From Parcubacteria group bacterium (GTDB lineage Bacteria; Patescibacteriota; Minisyncoccia; Phycocordibacterales; WO2-35-19): 32,282 bases of DNA. Under the pieces are notes generated by a model. That model did not search any database, was not told the origin of the DNA, and saw only the letters and a list, made by a program, of their open reading frames with translations. Position numbers and translations under genes: made by a program. Location: NCBI GenBank assembly GCA_012514175.1, contig JAAZAU010000009.1, forward strand, positions 1 to 32,282, in the 5' to 3' direction. Position 1 is the stretch's first letter. Every line of letters starts with the position of its first letter. Below, in pieces: positions 10,545 to 21,999 of the stretch.

Positions 10545-12173
10545 ATGCTTAAATTTTATAAAATCATAATTACCTCATTGCTTGTTGTTTGTGTCACTTT
10601 TTCTCCCAAGTTTGCTCAAAGGGTTTATGCTCAATATGTAGACATTGTCCAAGATGTTAAAGAGTTATACCTTGACCCTTTGGCTTGGATCACAGCCAAA
10701 ATGATTTTAGAAAAATTTACTGCTAGCGCTGTTAGTTGGATAAATAGCGGTTTTGACGGAAGTCCAGCCTTCGTAACCAATCCTGGGTCATTTTTCACCA
10801 CAGCGGCAGACGCAGCCATAGGTGAGTTTATATTTAGTAATGATGAATTAAATTTTCTTTGTACTCCTGATTTAAGTGTCAAACTTAAAATAGCCTTAGC
10901 CCGAGCCGCTGATAGAGAAAGAAATTATTATCAATGTACTTTAACTGATGTGGTTGATAATGTGGAAGATTTTATGAATGATTTCAACAGAGGGGGTTGG
11001 GATGCTTTTTTGGAGATGACCCAAAACCAAAGCAACACACCGCTAGGTCTTTATATACGAGCAGAAAACAAAATGATGCAAAGAGCAGAAGCCCGGGTTA
11101 ACGAAAGGTTAAAAGATTTGGATTGGGGTGGAGGTATGATGTCTTTCAAAAGTTGCTCTGCCTCAACAGCAAAATTTTGTGAAGAAGCCTGCGCCGATGC
11201 TGGTGATAACAAAAAAAATTGTATAAACTCTTGCAAAGACAAACCAAAAGAGGAGTTGTGTAATCTTGCTGGCGGAACCCTGAGCACCAAAACCCCGGGA
11301 AGTGTTATTGGAGCTCAACTTGAAAGAGCTTTAGGTTCGGCAGGTGCCACCTTGGAAATCGCAGACGAAGTGAGTGAAATAGTTGGGGCATTAACCGTTC
11401 AACTAACCAGTAAGGTTTTCAGCAGCGGTGGACTTTTGAGTGCGTCTTCCAAAAAAGATGGGTACTCTCTTGTAGATAGACTTGCTGAAAACTCAGAGAG
11501 AGCTGTTTCTGATGTTTATGGTGAATATAGTCAGGGCAACGTTGTCCCAGAGACACCAACCATACCAAAAACTATAAAAATAAAAGATGACAAAATTATT
11601 ATTGATAACAATCCGATCGGCCGATTAGAAAGTGTAAATTATCAAACTTTTGAAGGTTGGGCTTGTGACGCTGATGATTACGAAAAAGCTCTCACCATCA
11701 GATTTTATAATGGTGAATTAAATAATGGTGGAATACTTATCGGTTCTACCATAGCCAATCTCACAGGCGGACCAAACGTATCCACAAATTGTGGAGGTTA
11801 TTCGGCTCACAAGTTTTCTTTTGCTACCCCTTATTATTTCCAAAACACCAGCTCTTATAATATTTATGCTTATGCTGTAAATCTTGGATCGGAAGATTAC
11901 ATAAAACTAGAAGGTTCACCGAAAATTCTTTCAGGAGGATCTGGCTCAACAACAGACCCCGTAGTTAATCCTGTAACTAACCCAACGATAGACCCAATTT
12001 CTGACCTAGTATTTGGAGACCGCGATTGTTTGATGACAGACCCAACCGCTATAAACGCGATGGCGCAACCTTTTATAAATTCGTTACCACCAAATATGGA
12101 TGCTTTGGAAAGAGAAATTTTGATTAGAAATTATTTGTCCACATTAGATTGTCCACCAGAAGGTATACATTAG
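10545..12173 (+). CDS. Secreted T4SS-cluster protein with Cys-rich segment and C-terminal GWACD-type beta domain
   Basis: Signal-like N-terminus IIITSLLVVCVTFSPKFAQRVYAQ. Cys-rich segment KSCSASTAKFCEEACADAGDNKKNCINSCKDKPKEELC. C-terminal module FEGWACDADDYEKALTIRFYNGE...NCGGYSAHKFSFATPYYFQ..YNIYAYAVNLG. Confidence 0.6.
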   Translation: MLKFYKIIITSLLVVCVTFSPKFAQRVYAQYVDIVQDVKELYLDPLAWITAKMILEKFTASAVSWINSGFDGSPAFVTNPGSFFTTAADAAIGEFIFSNDELNFLCTPDLSVKLKIALARAADRERNYYQCTLTDVVDNVEDFMNDFNRGGWDAFLEMTQNQSNTPLGLYIRAENKMMQRAEARVNERLKDLDWGGGMMSFKSCSASTAKFCEEACADAGDNKKNCINSCKDKPKEELCNLAGGTLSTKTPGSVIGAQLERALGSAGATLEIADEVSEIVGALTVQLTSKVFSSGGLLSASSKKDGYSLVDRLAENSERAVSDVYGEYSQGNVVPETPTIPKTIKIKDDKIIIDNNPIGRLESVNYQTFEGWACDADDYEKALTIRFYNGELNNGGILIGSTIANLTGGPNVSTNCGGYSAHKFSFATPYYFQNTSSYNIYAYAVNLGSEDYIKLEGSPKILSGGSGSTTDPVVNPVTNPTIDPISDLVFGDRDCLMTDPTAINAMAQPFINSLPPNMDALEREILIRNYLSTLDCPPEGIH

Positions 12174-12198: not shown

Positions 12199-13959
12199 AT
12201 GAAAAAAAAGTTTTTAAAATTCGGAATATTGACACTAATCTTGATTGCGATACTTGCGCCAACAAATATTGCATTGGCTGGGCCTGTTGATGCAGTGGTT
12301 GATGCAGCGGCTTGGGCAGGTAAAAAAATACTTGATCCAGTAGTTGTATCACTTTTTCAAGGTATTTCTCAACTTCTGATAACATTGTCTTCTCTAATTT
12401 TGGGGCTTTCCGGAAAAATATTTGATTTCATTGTTGAGTTTACAATACTAGAAATGGCAGAAAACCTGGATGGAGGGTTGGGAGACGGAATAAACACAGC
12501 TTGGGCTACACTGCGAGATATCGCCAATATTTTCTTTATATTTGTGTTGCTTTTTACCGCCTTCAAAGCAATGTTTGATCTTAATATTGAAAGCCTCAGA
12601 AAAACATTGGTAGATATTATTATAATCGCCCTACTTATAAATTTTAGCCTCTTCCTTTCAAAAATAGTCATTGACGCCTCAAACGTTGTCTCTATTGGGT
12701 TTTATGACACCATAGCAGTAAGCGCAAACGAACAACAAATAGGAGACAATGTTATTTTTACAGGTGTTTCTGGGGGTTATATGAAAATGCTTGGCGTCCA
12801 CAGCCTATTTAATGCCGACATTTTAGATATGCCTGGCGTAAACGACCCTATCAAAATACTTCAAGTGGGAGTTATGAGTGCCATCTTTTTACTTGTCAGC
12901 GCCATAATCCTTATAATTTCTTCTGTTATGTTCATCACCCGTTTCATAATTTTAATTTTCATAATGATTCTTTCTCCGTTGGCTTTTGTGGCTTTCATAG
13001 TTCCTGGGATGAAAGATTATCATAGTCAATGGAAAGACGCTCTGATTAATCAATCGTTTTTTGCTCCTATATTTTTCGCTTTAACTTGGGTGGCTTTTAA
13101 ACTTGGATTCGCCCTCAGAGCAATGTTGATGAAAGGTCAAGGTGATTTTAGTTTTACTGCAACTTTTAAAGATCCGGGTGCCGCAATAGGTATTTTAGTT
13201 AATTATGTTGTTATAACAGGCTTTGCTATCGCCGCTCTTATTATCTCCAAAACGATCGCCAACAAAACTCCTGGGTTTGCTCAAGTTAACAAGTTTCTTG
13301 GTGGTGCTACCATCGGTGCTTCAGCTTGGGCTGGGAGAAAAACTGTTGGCAAATTAGGACAACGTGTTGCTGATAGCAAGTGGCTTAGAGAAAAAGCTCC
13401 TGATAGTCGGCTCGCAAGCACTGCTCTCTCGGTGGGTAAAAAAACTGGTTCCGCAAGTTTTGATCTTAGAGCCAGTAAAACCGTTGGAACAGTCCTTGGT
13501 GATGGAATGAAAGGTTTTGGTAAAGCCGGAGGTAAAGGTGGATATCAATCAGCTAGAGAGGCCTCAATCAAAAGAAAGATGGAATTTGCAGAGAAAGACT
13601 TAAAAGACAATGTGACTGGGGCCGATGTTGAAAGAGAAATGAAAAAAATTGGTTACGGTATAAAAGAAAACAAACGACAAAAGAGAAGCGCTTCCGAGGT
13701 TGAGGCAAAAAGAAAAGAAGTGCAAAAGTCTCTTGAAAAGAAAGCCACATCTAATACAAAATCAAGACAAGAAAAATATCGTCACCGTCTCAGTCAAAGC
13801 GGTGTATATGTAAACACTGAAGCAGCAAGAAGAATGAGAGCTGGTCAAAAAACAAAATCGGAGTCAGAAAAAATAATAGATTTACTCAAGGAAGAATTGA
13901 GAAAAGAAGAGAAAGAAAAAGAGGTTACAACAGACAACAAACCACCAGCAACTAGTTAA
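12199..13959 (+). CDS. TrbL/VirB6-like polytopic membrane protein of T4SS
   Basis: Multiple TM helices including WATLRDIANIFFIFVLLFTAFKAMF and LVDIIIIALLINFSLFLSKIVIDASNVV; charged cytoplasmic-like tail; synteny with PrgI and VirB4. Confidence 0.75.
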   Translation: MKKKFLKFGILTLILIAILAPTNIALAGPVDAVVDAAAWAGKKILDPVVVSLFQGISQLLITLSSLILGLSGKIFDFIVEFTILEMAENLDGGLGDGINTAWATLRDIANIFFIFVLLFTAFKAMFDLNIESLRKTLVDIIIIALLINFSLFLSKIVIDASNVVSIGFYDTIAVSANEQQIGDNVIFTGVSGGYMKMLGVHSLFNADILDMPGVNDPIKILQVGVMSAIFLLVSAIILIISSVMFITRFIILIFIMILSPLAFVAFIVPGMKDYHSQWKDALINQSFFAPIFFALTWVAFKLGFALRAMLMKGQGDFSFTATFKDPGAAIGILVNYVVITGFAIAALIISKTIANKTPGFAQVNKFLGGATIGASAWAGRKTVGKLGQRVADSKWLREKAPDSRLASTALSVGKKTGSASFDLRASKTVGTVLGDGMKGFGKAGGKGGYQSAREASIKRKMEFAEKDLKDNVTGADVEREMKKIGYGIKENKRQKRSASEVEAKRKEVQKSLEKKATSNTKSRQEKYRHRLSQSGVYVNTEAARRMRAGQKTKSESEKIIDLLKEELRKEEKEKEVTTDNKPPATS

Positions 13960-14619: not shown

Positions 14620-15057
14620 ATGAGATTTCAAATCCCACAATTTATAGACGTAGAAGATAAATTATTCGGCCCCCTTACTCTAAAACAATTTATTTATTTG
14701 GCTGGCGGAGCCAGTGTGACTGTAGCTGCCGTTGTTTTTTTGGGGCTTTTTTTTGGACTTATTGTTGCTTCTCCTGTGATAGTTTTGGCTGTTGCTTTAG
14801 CTTTTTATAGACCAAACAACAGACCTTTTATTAATTACTTAGAATCAATATTACAATATTACACTAAAGACAAACTTTATATTTGGAATAAAAAAGGACC
14901 GATAACAACTTTTACCGAAACAGAAGACGCAACAAAAAACAGAAAATATTCTTCAATTGTTGTGCCCAATCTTTCCCAAAGCAAACTAAAAGATATGAAC
15001 TGGGAATTGGATGTTAAGAAAAAACAAGATGAGGATTTAAGTGATAATGCTGTATAA
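14620..15057 (+). CDS. PrgI family protein
   Basis: MRFQIPQFIDVEDKLFGPLTLKQFIYLAGG, two TM helices, ...INYLESILQYYTKDKLYIWNKK; immediately upstream of VirB4-like genes. Confidence 0.85.
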   Translation: MRFQIPQFIDVEDKLFGPLTLKQFIYLAGGASVTVAAVVFLGLFFGLIVASPVIVLAVALAFYRPNNRPFINYLESILQYYTKDKLYIWNKKGPITTFTETEDATKNRKYSSIVVPNLSQSKLKDMNWELDVKKKQDEDLSDNAV

Positions 15058-15064
15058 TGTATCT

Positions 15065-15703
15065 ATGTCAAAAAACGCCACCCAAGAATTTGTGCCAATA
15101 GATGATGTTAGAGACGGTATCGCCATACTAAAAAATGGAAGTATGCGTGGTATCTTTATGGCTTCGTCTGTAAACTTTTCACTCAAATCTATTGATGAAA
15201 AACAGGCAATTTTAATGCAATTTCAAAACTTTTTGAATTCTCTTGATTTTCCGGTGCAAATTATAATTCAATCCAGAAGACTAGACATCAGACCTTATTT
15301 AGCTTTGTTAAAAGAAAGGCACAAAGAACAAACTAATGATTTAATGAAAATTCAAATTGAACAATACATTGCTTTCATAAGAAGTTTCACCGAATCGTCC
15401 AATATTATGACGAAAAATTTCTATGTTGTAGTTCCTTATGATCCTGCCATAATTTCAACCAAAAAAGGTAGCGGAGGTTTACCTTTACCAAACCTTGGCC
15501 CTAAACAACCGCAAAGCACCCTTAAAGAAGAAGATTTTGAAGAAAGGAAAAACCAATTAGAACAAAGGATGGGGGTGGTAGAGCAGGGTTTAGTTCGTTG
15601 TGGTGTTAGAGTGGCGAAACTTGGCACTGACGAAGTAGTAGAACTTTTTTATAAAACCTTTAATCCAGGAGAAAGCGAGAAGCTCGTTAAACTTCAAGAA
15701 TAA
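15065..15703 (+). CDS. TraC/VirB4 N-terminal domain protein (separate ORF)
   Basis: EFVPIDDVRDGIAILKNGSMRGIFMASSVNFSLKSIDEKQAILMQFQNFLNSLDFPVQIIIQSRRLDI; start refined to 15065; 3 nt upstream of the ATPase ORF. Confidence 0.8.
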   Translation: MSKNATQEFVPIDDVRDGIAILKNGSMRGIFMASSVNFSLKSIDEKQAILMQFQNFLNSLDFPVQIIIQSRRLDIRPYLALLKERHKEQTNDLMKIQIEQYIAFIRSFTESSNIMTKNFYVVVPYDPAIISTKKGSGGLPLPNLGPKQPQSTLKEEDFEERKNQLEQRMGVVEQGLVRCGVRVAKLGTDEVVELFYKTFNPGESEKLVKLQE

Positions 15704-15706
15704 ATT

Positions 15707-17527
15707 ATGTTTGATTTTTTCAAAAAGAAAGAAAGTGATGATGTGGCAATTTCTATTTTGCCTCAATCTGTTACTGATAGTTCCGAATTAGAACTACGAG
15801 ATATTTTAGCGCCCAGCGCCCTCAAGGTTAATGCTAAAGAGCTCAACTTGGGAGAAAAACTAGTAAGAAGTTTCTTTGTCATCTCATATCCTAGATTTGT
15901 TTCAATAGACTGGTTCTCACCGATTATCAATATGGATCAAATGTTTGACGTTTCTATATTTATACACCCCTTAGAGACTTCAAGAATTCTTCGCAGTTTC
16001 CAAAAAAAAGTCGCTGAAGTTCAAAGCCAGATAAGCGAAAGAGAAAGAAAGGGTTTGGTCAGAGACCCAATGCTTGATACCGCTTATCAAGATTTGGAAA
16101 ATTTACGCGACGACTTGCAACAAGCTCAAGAAAAAATGTTTGAGGTTGGTCTTTATATATCAATTTATGCCAATACCAGCGACGAGCTAGACAAAATTCA
16201 ATCAGAAATCAAATCTATCCTTGAATCTAAAATGGTTTATGTTAAACCGGCAATTTTCCAACAAGAACAAGGTTTTAAGAGTATTTTACCAACAGCAAAC
16301 GATGAACTAAAAGTTCATTGCAAAATAAACTCTTCTCCGCTTTCAAGTATCTTTCCGTTCGTTTCTTTCGACCTAACATCAAACACGGGTGTTCTTTATG
16401 GTATCAATCGTCACAATTCCTCTTTAGTGCTTTTTGATAGGTTTACTCTAGAAAATTATAATTCCGTCACTTTCGCAAAAGCTGGTTCCGGTAAATCTTT
16501 CGCCATCAAGCTAGAAATACTTAGAACCCTTATGTTTGATACTGAAGTCATTGTTATTGACCCAGAAAATGAATATCAATATATGGCTGAAGTGGTAGGG
16601 GGTAGATATTTCAACATTTCCTTAAATTCTGATCACCACATCAACCCGTTTGAGCTACCCACACCAGCTGAGGACGAATCTTTTGCTAGTGTTTTGCGGG
16701 GTCAAATCATAAACTTAGTTGGGCTTTTCAGACTTATGTTGGGTGGTCTTTCCCCTGAAGAAGACGCTTTGATTGATAGAGCCATTGCTGAAACTTACGC
16801 TTTAAAAGATATTACTGCTGATTCTGATTTTAGAAACACAGAACCACCACTACTTTCTGATTTTGAAATGGTGCTTTCTGGTATGGAAGGGGGAGAATCT
16901 TTAGTTCAAAGACTTTCTAAATACACCAAAGGAACTTGGTCTAACTTCATAAATAAACCCACCAACATTGATATGAATAAAAAGTTTGTGGTTTTCTCAA
17001 TTAGAGATATGGAAGACGAACTCAAACCTGTCGCAATGTATATTATTATGCACTATATATGGAGCGCTATCCGTCGCGAACTCAAAAAAAGACTTCTGGT
17101 TGTTGATGAAGCTTGGTGGATGATGAAATCTGAAGATACAGCTTCTTTCCTTTTTTCTCTCGCCAAAAGAGGCCGTAAGTATTACCTGGGGCTCGCAACT
17201 ATTACTCAAGACGTGGACGACTTCTTAAAATCACCTTATGGAGGCCCCATTGTTTCAAACTCTTCTATTCAAATTTTACTCAAGCAGTCGCCAACCGTAA
17301 TTGATAAGCTTCAAGAAGTATTCAACTTAACGGATGAAGAAAAATATTTACTTTTAGAATCAGGAGTAGGGGAAGGTATTTTCTTTGCTGGACTCAAACA
17401 TGTCGCTATTAAAATCATCGCCTCTTATACCGAAGAACAAATTATCACCTCAGACCCTTCACAAGTTCTGGCTATGAAAAAACAAAGACGAGAAATGCAG
17501 GAACAGGAAGAATATGAAAACGAATAA
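15707..17527 (+). CDS. virB4: VirB4-like T4SS ATPase
   Basis: FAKAGSGKSFAIKLEILR (Walker A), VIVIDPENEYQYMAEVVGGRYFNIS, LLVVDEAWWMM (Walker B), LATITQDVDDFL. Confidence 0.9.
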   Translation: MFDFFKKKESDDVAISILPQSVTDSSELELRDILAPSALKVNAKELNLGEKLVRSFFVISYPRFVSIDWFSPIINMDQMFDVSIFIHPLETSRILRSFQKKVAEVQSQISERERKGLVRDPMLDTAYQDLENLRDDLQQAQEKMFEVGLYISIYANTSDELDKIQSEIKSILESKMVYVKPAIFQQEQGFKSILPTANDELKVHCKINSSPLSSIFPFVSFDLTSNTGVLYGINRHNSSLVLFDRFTLENYNSVTFAKAGSGKSFAIKLEILRTLMFDTEVIVIDPENEYQYMAEVVGGRYFNISLNSDHHINPFELPTPAEDESFASVLRGQIINLVGLFRLMLGGLSPEEDALIDRAIAETYALKDITADSDFRNTEPPLLSDFEMVLSGMEGGESLVQRLSKYTKGTWSNFINKPTNIDMNKKFVVFSIRDMEDELKPVAMYIIMHYIWSAIRRELKKRLLVVDEAWWMMKSEDTASFLFSLAKRGRKYYLGLATITQDVDDFLKSPYGGPIVSNSSIQILLKQSPTVIDKLQEVFNLTDEEKYLLLESGVGEGIFFAGLKHVAIKIIASYTEEQIITSDPSQVLAMKKQRREMQEQEEYENE

Positions 17528-18838: not shown

Positions 18839-19837
18839 ATGTTAAACAGAATTTTAAAAGGAATAGTAATACTTACTATAATTCCGGTGTTTTTGCCAAT
18901 AACAACTTCCGCACAAATAATAAAATCTTCAGATTTTATAAATGAGCTTGAGGTTTCTGTAAGCCCTGATTATCCTAGACCGAACGAAAAAGCCTATATA
19001 ACTTTGTATATGTATACTAGAGACTTGAATTCCGCAGATATTACTTGGTATCAAGACGGTAAAATTGTTTTGGAAGGCAAAGGCGAGACTAGTTATTCTT
19101 TTAAAACCGCCTCAGCTGGCACAAAAACGAATATAAAAGTTGATGTTAAATTTTTAAATGGAGTTTTATTTACAAAAAGTTTAAGCATAAACCCGGCTTC
19201 TGTAGACTTGGTTTGGGAAGCTAATTCTTATACTCCACCTTTTTACAAAGGCAAAGCTTTACACCCGAGGCAAGGAAATTTGAAAGTTGTAGCTATGCCT
19301 GAGTTTGTTGTTAATGACAAAACAATCCCCCCCGAAAAACTCATTTATAATTGGTCAAACGAAACCAAAGGTTACCAAAATCAATCCGGTTATGGTAAAA
19401 ATTCTTTGATAGTAGAAGGATCAATTCTTGGGCAAAGCAACACCGTTAAAGTTTTGGTAACAGACCCCGTAACCAATTTGACCGCTCAAAACTCCATAAA
19501 AATTACCCCAACCGATCCTCAAATAGTTTTTTATAAAAACGACCCATATTATGGTTATATTTTTGATTCAGCTCTTATAAATTCGTTTAACTTAACTTCA
19601 GAAGAGGTTCAAATCTTAGCAGTCCCTTATTATTTCACCAAAGAAAAAGATAGTGATCTAAAATATAATTGGAAGCTTAATAACCAAACCATTTCGGCTT
19701 TAACCGGTTCAAGAATAGCTATCTTCAAAAAACCAGAATCACAAGAAGGTTGGTCTTCCGTTTCTTTGGAAATCACAAATTTAAACCGAATATTACAACA
19801 AACCAAAAGTAGTCTGGTTATGAATTTCACAAAATAA
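18839..19837 (+). CDS. Secreted/membrane protein with Ig-like repeats
   Basis: Signal peptide ILKGIVILTIIPVFLPITTSAQ; beta-rich Ig-like segments (NEKAYITLYMYTRDLNSADITWYQDGKIV; LIYNWSNETKGYQNQSGYGKNSLIVEG). Confidence 0.65.
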   Translation: MLNRILKGIVILTIIPVFLPITTSAQIIKSSDFINELEVSVSPDYPRPNEKAYITLYMYTRDLNSADITWYQDGKIVLEGKGETSYSFKTASAGTKTNIKVDVKFLNGVLFTKSLSINPASVDLVWEANSYTPPFYKGKALHPRQGNLKVVAMPEFVVNDKTIPPEKLIYNWSNETKGYQNQSGYGKNSLIVEGSILGQSNTVKVLVTDPVTNLTAQNSIKITPTDPQIVFYKNDPYYGYIFDSALINSFNLTSEEVQILAVPYYFTKEKDSDLKYNWKLNNQTISALTGSRIAIFKKPESQEGWSSVSLEITNLNRILQQTKSSLVMNFTK

Positions 19838-19838
19838 A

Positions 19839-20732
19839 ATGAAGAAGAAAATACTTAACGTATTAATACTGAGCCTCATTATTATCTTAAGCGTGCCTGT
19901 TTTTAGTTATGCCCAAGAAACAGAAGATGGTTATATCTTTTTGGCCCCATTAGCAGGTTTAAAGAAAGTGTCACGTGATCACGCTTTACAAGAATACATT
20001 CCTTTTATTTTTAAATTGCTCATAGGTTTGTCAGCAGTTTTTGCTGTCTTGTCTATAGTTGTTGGAGGTTTTCAATATATTTCAACAGATGCTTTTCAAA
20101 AGAAAAGTGAAGGAAAGGCTAGAATCAAGAATTCTATTTTGGGACTAATTTTAGTGATAGGGTCTTGGTTAATTTTACACACCATAAACCCCGACTTACT
20201 TGAAATAAATCTAGAATTGGAAACCCCCGTTATGGAAGAGATGCCAGAATCCTCTGGATCATTAAGACCGGGTGGATCTAGAGTAGCAACAGGGGCTGAT
20301 TTATTATCCGGAACAAGCCTGGCGGCTGACGAAAGCATAAGAAAACAACTTGAATCTGCTGGTATAAAGATTAATAACCCACCTTGTACCGCGGATAGAA
20401 CTTCCAATTGCACAAATTTAAATGGATTACCTCAGTCCACTATTATAACCCTAGCTGCTTTAAAATTGGATTGCTCAAACTACCACGGGTCAGATTGCCC
20501 AATCGTAATTACAGCTGGCACAGAAACATCTTTACATAACAAAGGAACTGCACACAGACCAGGAAATGGTGTGATAGACCTAAGACCAACCCCTAAACTC
20601 AACGCTTATTTAGGAAACACTTCTCCAAAAGATGGTGAACAAATTGTTAAAAATGGTTTTAAGTTTACTTACGAAGTGATCGGCTCAAATCCTGCAAGCA
20701 CAGCCGACCATTGGCACGTAGTAACTCAATAA
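19839..20732 (+). CDS. T4SS pilin-like (VirB2/TrbC-like) protein fused to M15 peptidase-like domain
   Basis: Signal peptide plus two-TM pilin-like core FIFKLLIGLSAVFAVLSIVVGGFQYISTDAFQKKSEGKARIKNSILGLILVIGSWLILHTINPDLL. C-terminus SLHNKGTAHRPGNGVIDL...DHWHV resembles M15 zinc ligands. Confidence 0.65.
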   Translation: MKKKILNVLILSLIIILSVPVFSYAQETEDGYIFLAPLAGLKKVSRDHALQEYIPFIFKLLIGLSAVFAVLSIVVGGFQYISTDAFQKKSEGKARIKNSILGLILVIGSWLILHTINPDLLEINLELETPVMEEMPESSGSLRPGGSRVATGADLLSGTSLAADESIRKQLESAGIKINNPPCTADRTSNCTNLNGLPQSTIITLAALKLDCSNYHGSDCPIVITAGTETSLHNKGTAHRPGNGVIDLRPTPKLNAYLGNTSPKDGEQIVKNGFKFTYEVIGSNPASTADHWHVVTQ

Positions 20733-20742
20733 CAAAATTAAA

Positions 20743-21999
20743 ATGAAAAAAATACTTTTAATAATAGGAATATTAGCAATATTAGGAACAGCGGTATTTT
20801 TTATACTAAATTCCACACCAACAAGCGAAGAAGGTGAGAGTCGTATTGGTTTTTCTATAAGAAACTATATTCCTTTTGGAAAAGGTGAAGAACCAGACTT
20901 AGATGATGACGACACAACTCCAATTAGCGACGATGCAAACCAAATTAGCGACACACCATATTTAGATGACCAAAAAATTCCTAGACTGAGAAAAATATCA
21001 AATGAACCTGTGGCTGGAGCTGTGATATTTAACACAGGCACCAGTAGTGTTGTAAGATTTATAGAGAAGGGAACTGGTAATATTTATGAAGCCAAATCTG
21101 ACACCACAACTATCACCAGACTAACCAACACAACCATACCGAAAGTAATTAGAGCCTTTTGGTTACCTAATGGTTCTGGACTCTTAGCTCAAACCATACC
21201 ATCTGAATATGAAATAGTAGAAACTAGTTTTATAAAACTCACCAAAAACACAGCCACGAGTAGTAGTGAGGAAAATCTAACTCCTTTTAGGGTGGTTACC
21301 AGCAAATTACCGACTGATATTAAAGAAATATCCGTAAAACCCGACAGTTCTAAGATTTTTTATTACGTTATTAACAAATCACATTCAGATTGGTATATTT
21401 CAAACCCTGATGGCACGGGTAGCAACCTAGTAGCTTCTAATGCTCTTACAGAATGGCTCCCTAAATGGCTCTCGGGTAATAAAATTTCAATGCAAACCAA
21501 AAGCAGTTCTGGTAGTTTAGGTTATTCTTATGTTTTTGATGTTTCAGATGGAAGTTTAAAAAAAGCAGGCTCAGGTTTTTGGGGAATTTCTGCCAATTTA
21601 AAAAATGATGGATCAAAAAGTTTGGTGTCTAGCGGTCGTTCATTTCCAGAATTATACATTCAAGACAACGATGACAATTCTTTAGAAAAAATGTGGGTAA
21701 AAACTTTGGCAGAAAAGTGCCTTTGGGGTAATAAAAACAATTTAATATATTGCGCAATACCAGAACAAATACCAAACGGCAACTATCCTGATGTTTGGTA
21801 TAAAGGTTTAGTATCAACTGAAGATTTTATAGGAAAGTTTGATATAGATAATGATATTTATTACAATTTAGCCAACCTAACCTCTCTTTCTGGAGAAAAA
21901 ATTGATGTAATAGATATAAGTATGTCTCCAGACCAAACCCACATTATATTCAAAAATAAAATTGATGGCTTTTTGTGGATGCTCAGAATAGAAGAATAA
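20743..21999 (+). CDS. Membrane-anchored beta-propeller-like (TolB/WD40-type) protein
   Basis: N-terminal TM IIGILAILGTAVFFILNSTP; repeated propeller-like motifs (IRAFWLPNGSGLLAQT, EISVKPDSSKIFYYV, DISMSPDQTHIIFKN). Confidence 0.65.
   Translation: MKKILLIIGILAILGTAVFFILNSTPTSEEGESRIGFSIRNYIPFGKGEEPDLDDDDTTPISDDANQISDTPYLDDQKIPRLRKISNEPVAGAVIFNTGTSSVVRFIEKGTGNIYEAKSDTTTITRLTNTTIPKVIRAFWLPNGSGLLAQTIPSEYEIVETSFIKLTKNTATSSSEENLTPFRVVTSKLPTDIKEISVKPDSSKIFYYVINKSHSDWYISNPDGTGSNLVASNALTEWLPKWLSGNKISMQTKSSSGSLGYSYVFDVSDGSLKKAGSGFWGISANLKNDGSKSLVSSGRSFPELYIQDNDDNSLEKMWVKTLAEKCLWGNKNNLIYCAIPEQIPNGNYPDVWYKGLVSTEDFIGKFDIDNDIYYNLANLTSLSGEKIDVIDISMSPDQTHIIFKNKIDGFLWMLRIEE

Follow-up and report, generated by a model that had tools for sequence, protein, structure and literature searches.

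Organization of the locus

The window, meaning the whole stretch of DNA analyzed (32,282 nucleotides), lies on contig C3 of a 100%-complete genome (G000) of 0.64 Mb, and the source organism is an ultrasmall, probably host-dependent bacterium. A group of T4SS genes and their neighbors lies on the plus strand of the window:

12199–13959, plus strand: VirB6-like polytopic membrane protein, assigned by position, hydrophobic segments and conserved neighborhood (no Pfam match)
14620–15057, plus strand: PrgI/VirB3-like protein (PF12666, E 5e-12)
15041–15703, plus strand: ORF preceding the main VirB4 ATPase ORF and interpreted as the N-terminal portion of VirB4; co-located with the ATPase in relatives (no Pfam match)
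15707–17527, plus strand: main ORF of the VirB4-like ATPase with the TraG P-loop (PF19044, E 2e-29)
18839–19837, plus strand: Ig332, the upstream partner, 332 aa, secreted, a conserved neighbor
19839–20732, plus strand: fused gene, 297 aa, ATG to TAA, with a signal peptide, a T4SS-pilin-type two-TM hairpin, a linker and an M15/Hedgehog-type LAS-like domain
20743–21999, plus strand: 418, the downstream partner, 418 aa, with an N-terminal membrane segment, a conserved neighbor

The stop codon of Ig332 lies 1 base before the ATG of the fused gene, and 418 starts 10 bases past its end. Given these short gaps, the three genes are probably co-transcribed. The arrangement recurs in related genomes: in 33 of 39 loci, the gene for the C-terminal domain is located beside Ig332 and/or 418, in a region with the order VirB6-PrgI-VirB4-...-YidC-rnpA-dnaA. 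VirB4 itself is seemingly split into two adjacent ORFs (15041–15703 and 15707–17527), and the split is kept in related loci.

The fused gene can be divided as follows:

19839–19913, plus strand: signal-peptide-like N-terminus, residues 1–25, ending in SYA
19989–20180, plus strand: T4SS_pilin hairpin, residues 51–114 (PF18895, 36.0 bits, cut-off 26.6)
20205–20270, plus strand: low-confidence linker, residues 123–144, probably flexible (AlphaFold2 pLDDT<50)
20310–20729, plus strand: C-terminal LAS-like domain, residues about 158–297

The initial annotation had described one ORF joining a VirB2/T4SS-pilin-like two-TM segment to a C-terminal domain, and this description agrees with the ORF boundaries and with the PF18895 match, which reaches 39.8 bits in a six-frame search. 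A hydropathy scan reveals a signal-peptide-like segment (residues 1–27) and two hydrophobic segments (residues 52–82 and 95–114) separated by a positively charged loop (QKKSEGKAR). An AlphaFold2 model of the full-length protein, of moderate confidence only (pTM 0.54), places helices at residues 50–82 and 86–116. An NCBIfam model for related conjugal pilin-like proteins also matches the pilin half, at a score under the model's own cut-off. The PF18895 score is above the gathering cut-off, and the signal peptide, the two-TM hairpin with its short charged loop, and the VirB4 locus near dnaA are features shared with the VirB2-like pilins of Patescibacteria (PMC12102498). The combination of signal-peptide-like start, two hydrophobic helices and positively charged loop predicts an extracellular C-terminal part, and the conservation of four cysteines in it (183, 191, 212 and 220) fits this prediction. 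The fusion of the pilin-type hairpin to this domain is virtually certain to be real; a contig or frame artifact is ruled out by the presence of the same ORF in many independent assemblies.

The hairpin may also be read in another way, with the protein being a plain membrane-anchored wall peptidase that plays no structural part in the T4SS and resembles pilins through the shared shape of a two-TM hairpin. PF18895 is a short, hydrophobic model, and the full-length AlphaFold2 model was uninformative in Foldseek, both of which would fit such a protein. We consider this reading rather unlikely, in view of PF18895 scores above the cut-off both in the window protein and in three relatives (L398–L400, described below), and of the fixed place of the gene in the VirB4 operon (33 of 39 loci).

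Ordinary pilins are encoded elsewhere in the same genome, in a seven-gene array on contig C4 (8386–10892). They are short (about 87–151 aa) and lack an added domain, whereas the pilin in the window carries one. With the ordinary pilins encoded separately, the fused protein would more probably serve as a minor or basal subunit than make up the filament. Some genomes have a pilin at the slot of the fused gene without such a domain (L259, L261 and L262), and thus the domain is not universally required.

Conserved motifs of the C-terminal domain

Three groups of conserved residues are found in the domain:

20523–20537, plus strand: TE..LH motif (E229 and H233)
20553–20579, plus strand: H239-x7-D247, predicted zinc ligands, aligned with SxHxxGxAxD of M15
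20709–20717, plus strand: H291-W-H293, the HxH motif of the LAS rule, comprising the predicted catalytic histidine and third zinc ligand

Both motifs quoted in the initial annotation are present: SLHNKGTAHRPGNGVIDL spans residues 231–248 (H233, H239, D247) and DHWHV spans residues 290–294 (H291, H293). Conservation was counted on 49 homologues that were not fetched by motif; loci collected with a gapped DNA pattern are biased towards the motif and were, therefore, excluded from the count. E229, D247 and H291 are invariant (49/49), and H233 and H239 are each present in 48 homologues. H293 is conserved in 44, the remaining five having an aspartate at this position, and W292 in 43. A chance motif is ruled out by this conservation. 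Matches to the gapped DNA pattern in viral contigs were all chance matches, and an apparent domain match at L020 proved spurious, containing stop codons.

The annotation had further likened these residues to the zinc ligands of M15 peptidases. These metal-ligand-like residues are nearly invariant, with one correction as to spacing. The textbook M15 spacing is H-x6-D, while the window protein has x7; x6 itself occurs in 11 of 48 homologues, as it does in family B, a different pilin-carried domain discussed below. The LAS superfamily is defined by the zinc ligands H-x(3–6)-D...H together with an HxH motif, of which the first histidine is catalytic (PMC4087270, PMC6027127). H239-x7-D247 is, thus, one residue longer than the LAS consensus. 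The H-x-H element is found as H291-W-H293 in the window protein and in the same 44 of the 49 homologues, with HxD in the other five.

Direct searches and predicted structure

Searches with the C-terminal domain against Pfam, NCBIfam, PHROG and PDB sequences gave no direct match. The domain reaches no cut-off of a Pfam M15 model or of HH_signal (PF01085) and, as a result, we do not class it as a Pfam M15 member. A search of plasmids gave no match to the domain, and a search of phages gave non-significant matches only.

The structure of the domain was predicted confidently by AlphaFold2 from an alignment of 29 sequences (pLDDT 86.9, pTM 0.82). In domain numbering (protein numbering is +138), the model contains a helix (61–78), a strand (84–88), a second strand (107–110, with D247), a helix (114–119), and a last strand (153–158) that bears H291 and H293. 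The order of these predicted elements is that expected for M15. In a Foldseek comparison of the domain model with the PDB, the best E-value was 0.06 and all TM-scores were below 0.5, the usual fold threshold. The top two query-normalised TM-scores among the 50 PDB matches listed are those of Ply500 (0.33, E 0.41) and MepA (0.31, E 1.7), both of which are LAS peptidoglycan enzymes. Wall enzymes were frequent among the matches to viral structures ("Endolysin, peptidase domain", "Peptidase M15B", "Putative peptidase"), with a best E-value of 3e-3 and TM-scores below 0.5. We regard these sub-threshold matches as suggestive, in a supporting role only.

Relationship to M15 and Hedgehog-type peptidases

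Although the window domain has no direct Pfam match, the M15-like reading proposed for it is supported through its relatives. A fusion of a pilin to an M15 peptidase certainly exists within the order: one 348-aa ORF (L398) matches both PF18895 (40.1 bits) and PF08291, Peptidase_M15_3 (59 bits, E 5.9e-16). It is located beside another pilin and not at the T4SS slot.

A scan of the order with PF01085 returned three further proteins (L395, L399 and L400), all of which occupy the same T4SS slot as the window fusion (L403–L405). In L395, HH_signal (33.3 bits, cut-off 22.1) is joined to a pilin-like region that a fused-pilin HMM built here recognizes at 1e-34 and that scores below the PF18895 cut-off. 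The profile of family A, as we call the family of the window domain, also matches this protein. L399 and L400 are pilin-fused, with PF18895 scores above the cut-off, and their tails match the family A profile at 1e-16. The same two proteins show sub-threshold matches to HH_signal (0.011 and 0.024, respectively) and to M15_4 (E 0.066 and 0.013), and the motif of L399 reads SLHYQGRAVD. Connection of the window domain to the pilin-M15 fusions through the intermediates L399 and L400 is, at the level of sequence, well supported.

A second line of evidence comes from family B, which occupies the same slot at the two loci whose context was examined (L250 and L254). Family B is found in 11 of 148 genomes, with none among the 94 genomes that have family A; the family B genomes without family A include one of the same genus as the window. 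An HMM-HMM comparison of families A and B with hhalign gave a p-value of 3e-5 (probability 73), as compared to p-values of at least 0.05 for 13 unrelated-family controls. When the family B profile was searched blind against 177,635 PDB sequences, the top matches were 21 chains of the Hedgehog N-domain (best E 0.0024), and the alignment is in register through TE...H...H-x6-D, the TE of family B aligning with that of Hedgehog. Hedgehog proteins are the "S" of LAS. Profile comparison of family A with phage M15_3 endolysins gave a weak match that is in register (p 0.0069); for families A and B combined the p-value was 0.0015, the best control being 0.13. The link was not strengthened with the HWD-variant subfamily (p 0.099).

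It is, thus, highly probable that the window domain is homologous to the M15/Hedgehog LAS peptidases and, as judged from these comparisons, it is nearer to the Hedgehog-type M15/LAS branch than to a typical D-Ala-D-Ala carboxypeptidase. In profile alignments it shares with M15 peptidases (PF08291), which are of the L-Ala-D-Glu or D-Ala-D-Ala type and include phage endolysins, the order helix, strand, H...D, helix, H(x)H, and differs from them by its longer H-x7-D spacing, the extra invariant E229 and near-invariant H233, the four cysteines, and the absence of a match to any M15 model. Likeness to the Hedgehog N-domain and BacHh proteins (PF01085) arises from the register of family B, the HH_signal fusion in L395 and the motif of L399, while the window domain is itself undetected by PF01085. 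The N-terminal regions of the BacHh proteins described to date are of other kinds and include no T4SS pilin (PMC6027127).

The domain could have kept the LAS fold and the metal site and yet act chiefly in binding or adhesion, to peptidoglycan, a glycan or a host receptor. For animal Hedgehog proteins, a binding rather than an enzymatic role has been argued. The Hedgehog-like relatives, the atypical H-x7-D spacing and the change of HxH to HxD in five members would be consistent with such a role. However, the candidate ligands and the HxH motif are all retained in most members, and where H293 is lost an aspartate takes its place, itself a possible ligand. We therefore view a binding module as decidedly unlikely. 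The domain is probably an active zinc peptidase.

At the same slot, L255 (6896–8155) may have a third kind of pilin-fused domain (CHYGGG..MAVDF...GNHLHV), which we assign to neither family A nor family B.

Distribution of the fusion

The family A domain is present in 94 of the 397 sampled genomes of the order. Phylum-wide, it was found in 14 of 380 genomes, seven of which are outside the order and include other Patescibacteria classes. There are 60 distinct family A ORFs, three of which are cut by contig ends and were left out of the fusion count. Among the 57 complete ORFs, 54 are fused to a pilin (49 identified by HMM, and five from the two-TM pair). The initial annotation called the design unusual. 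This holds relative to described systems, but within the order the pilin/LAS-like fusion is recurrent.

The three unfused exceptions are a fusion to a T4-type lysozyme (L018/L157), a single-TM second copy adjoining a pilin-fused copy (L021), and a 1403-aa protein (L214). The lysozyme fusion, from Vogelbacteria RIFOXYD1_FULL_44_32, is an ORF of 552 aa in which the domain is joined, after DGxDNDGDG repeats, to the lysozyme (PDB lysozyme, E 1e-8). Its gene lies at the beginning of the T4SS locus in the reverse orientation, and the protein looks like a two-enzyme endolysin. In the 1403-aa protein (L214/L164), also encoded at a T4SS locus, the domain is N-terminal, and L164 has a Pfam match to MgtE_N at about residue 350. 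Members from other Patescibacteria classes (L376, L378 and L382) have a single TM segment and a Gln/Glu-rich N-terminus, predicted to be cytoplasmic, with HWD replacing HWH.

Proposed function

We propose, with a probability of roughly 0.55, that the gene encodes a pilin-like T4SS subunit carrying a divergent M15/Hedgehog-type LAS peptidase, which opens the cell wall locally in the stead of VirB1. After removal of the signal peptide, the membrane or the pilus base would hold the two hydrophobic helices; the charged loop would face the cell interior, and the C-terminal domain would lie outside, in the zone of the wall. Zinc would be bound by the predicted ligands H239, D247 and H293, with H291, and perhaps E229, assisting. 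The enzyme would cleave the peptidoglycan beside the secretion machine at its stem or cross-link peptides, and the resulting local opening would let the channel or pilus pass, which is the job of a separate VirB1-type hydrolase. That peptidoglycan is the substrate appears likely, slightly less so than the peptidase activity itself, and for the VirB1-like local role we would give even odds.

The likeness to VirB1-type hydrolases is one of probable role, namely opening peptidoglycan locally on behalf of a T4SS. VirB1, PrgK and TrsG/CD419 are proteins in their own right, with lytic transglycosylase and CHAP domains (PMC12102498), whereas in the window it is the pilin that bears a metallopeptidase-like domain. 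The window protein has no SLT or CHAP/NlpC Pfam domain and, thus, the comparison with VirB1 concerns how the protein would work.

The same enzyme might instead be aimed at the host, with the fused pilin displayed on the outside of the pilus or at its tip and digesting the wall of the host (prey) at the contact site. Patescibacteria are epibionts, and the epibiotic growth of Southlakia requires its T4SS and pilins (PMC10633639, PMC12102498). Differing LAS-type domains at one slot across genomes would be expected if host walls differ, and one relative pairs the domain with a T4-type lysozyme, as in an endolysin. Yet a filament with a 140-residue domain on every subunit would be hard to pack; the ordinary pilins are encoded separately; and the distant members L376, L378 and L382 are anchored by a single TM segment without a pilin. 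A host target is, on balance, unlikely. Quite unlikely, in our view, is a pilus-borne drill in which exchangeable LAS peptidases (family A, family B and Hedgehog-like), carried in the T4SS pilin, digest host peptidoglycan where the cells touch, the type of peptidase tracking the chemistry of the host wall.

A pilin with its own wall-opening peptidase would, if our preferred reading is correct, explain how such machines pass peptidoglycan. A survey of T4SSs in Patescibacteria counted 1,948 assemblies with both VirB4 and VirB2-like pilins, and states that a recognizable VirB1 is absent from most genomes that have such pilins (PMC12102498). In Southlakia, the only Patescibacterium examined in this respect, the T4SS is essential for epibiotic growth, yet the usual wall-opening helper is not recognizable in most of the pilin-bearing genomes, which is why a wall-peptidase pilin matters; the occurrence of the same fusion in many related genomes suggests how a T4SS without this helper might cross the wall. 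The proposal is a directly testable single-gene hypothesis of how ultrasmall cells reach through a wall, be it their own or that of a host, and it places Hedgehog-like peptidases in a new bacterial setting. The main text of the 2025 survey makes no mention of a peptidase fused to a pilin (PMC12102498), and neither a fusion of a T4SS pilin to a LAS peptidase-like domain nor varied LAS-type domains at one locus were found in the open-access papers searched. The parts are of known kinds, and their joining appears to be new within that literature.

With regard to other wall hydrolases in the 100%-complete genome G000, no SLT transglycosylase above the cut-off was detected in a search limited to the SLT family, and a LysM-M23 hydrolase is encoded. 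The pilin array on contig C4 (L247, 8242–10937) adjoins a lysozyme-like ORF without a Pfam match, located on the minus strand at 11016–12128.
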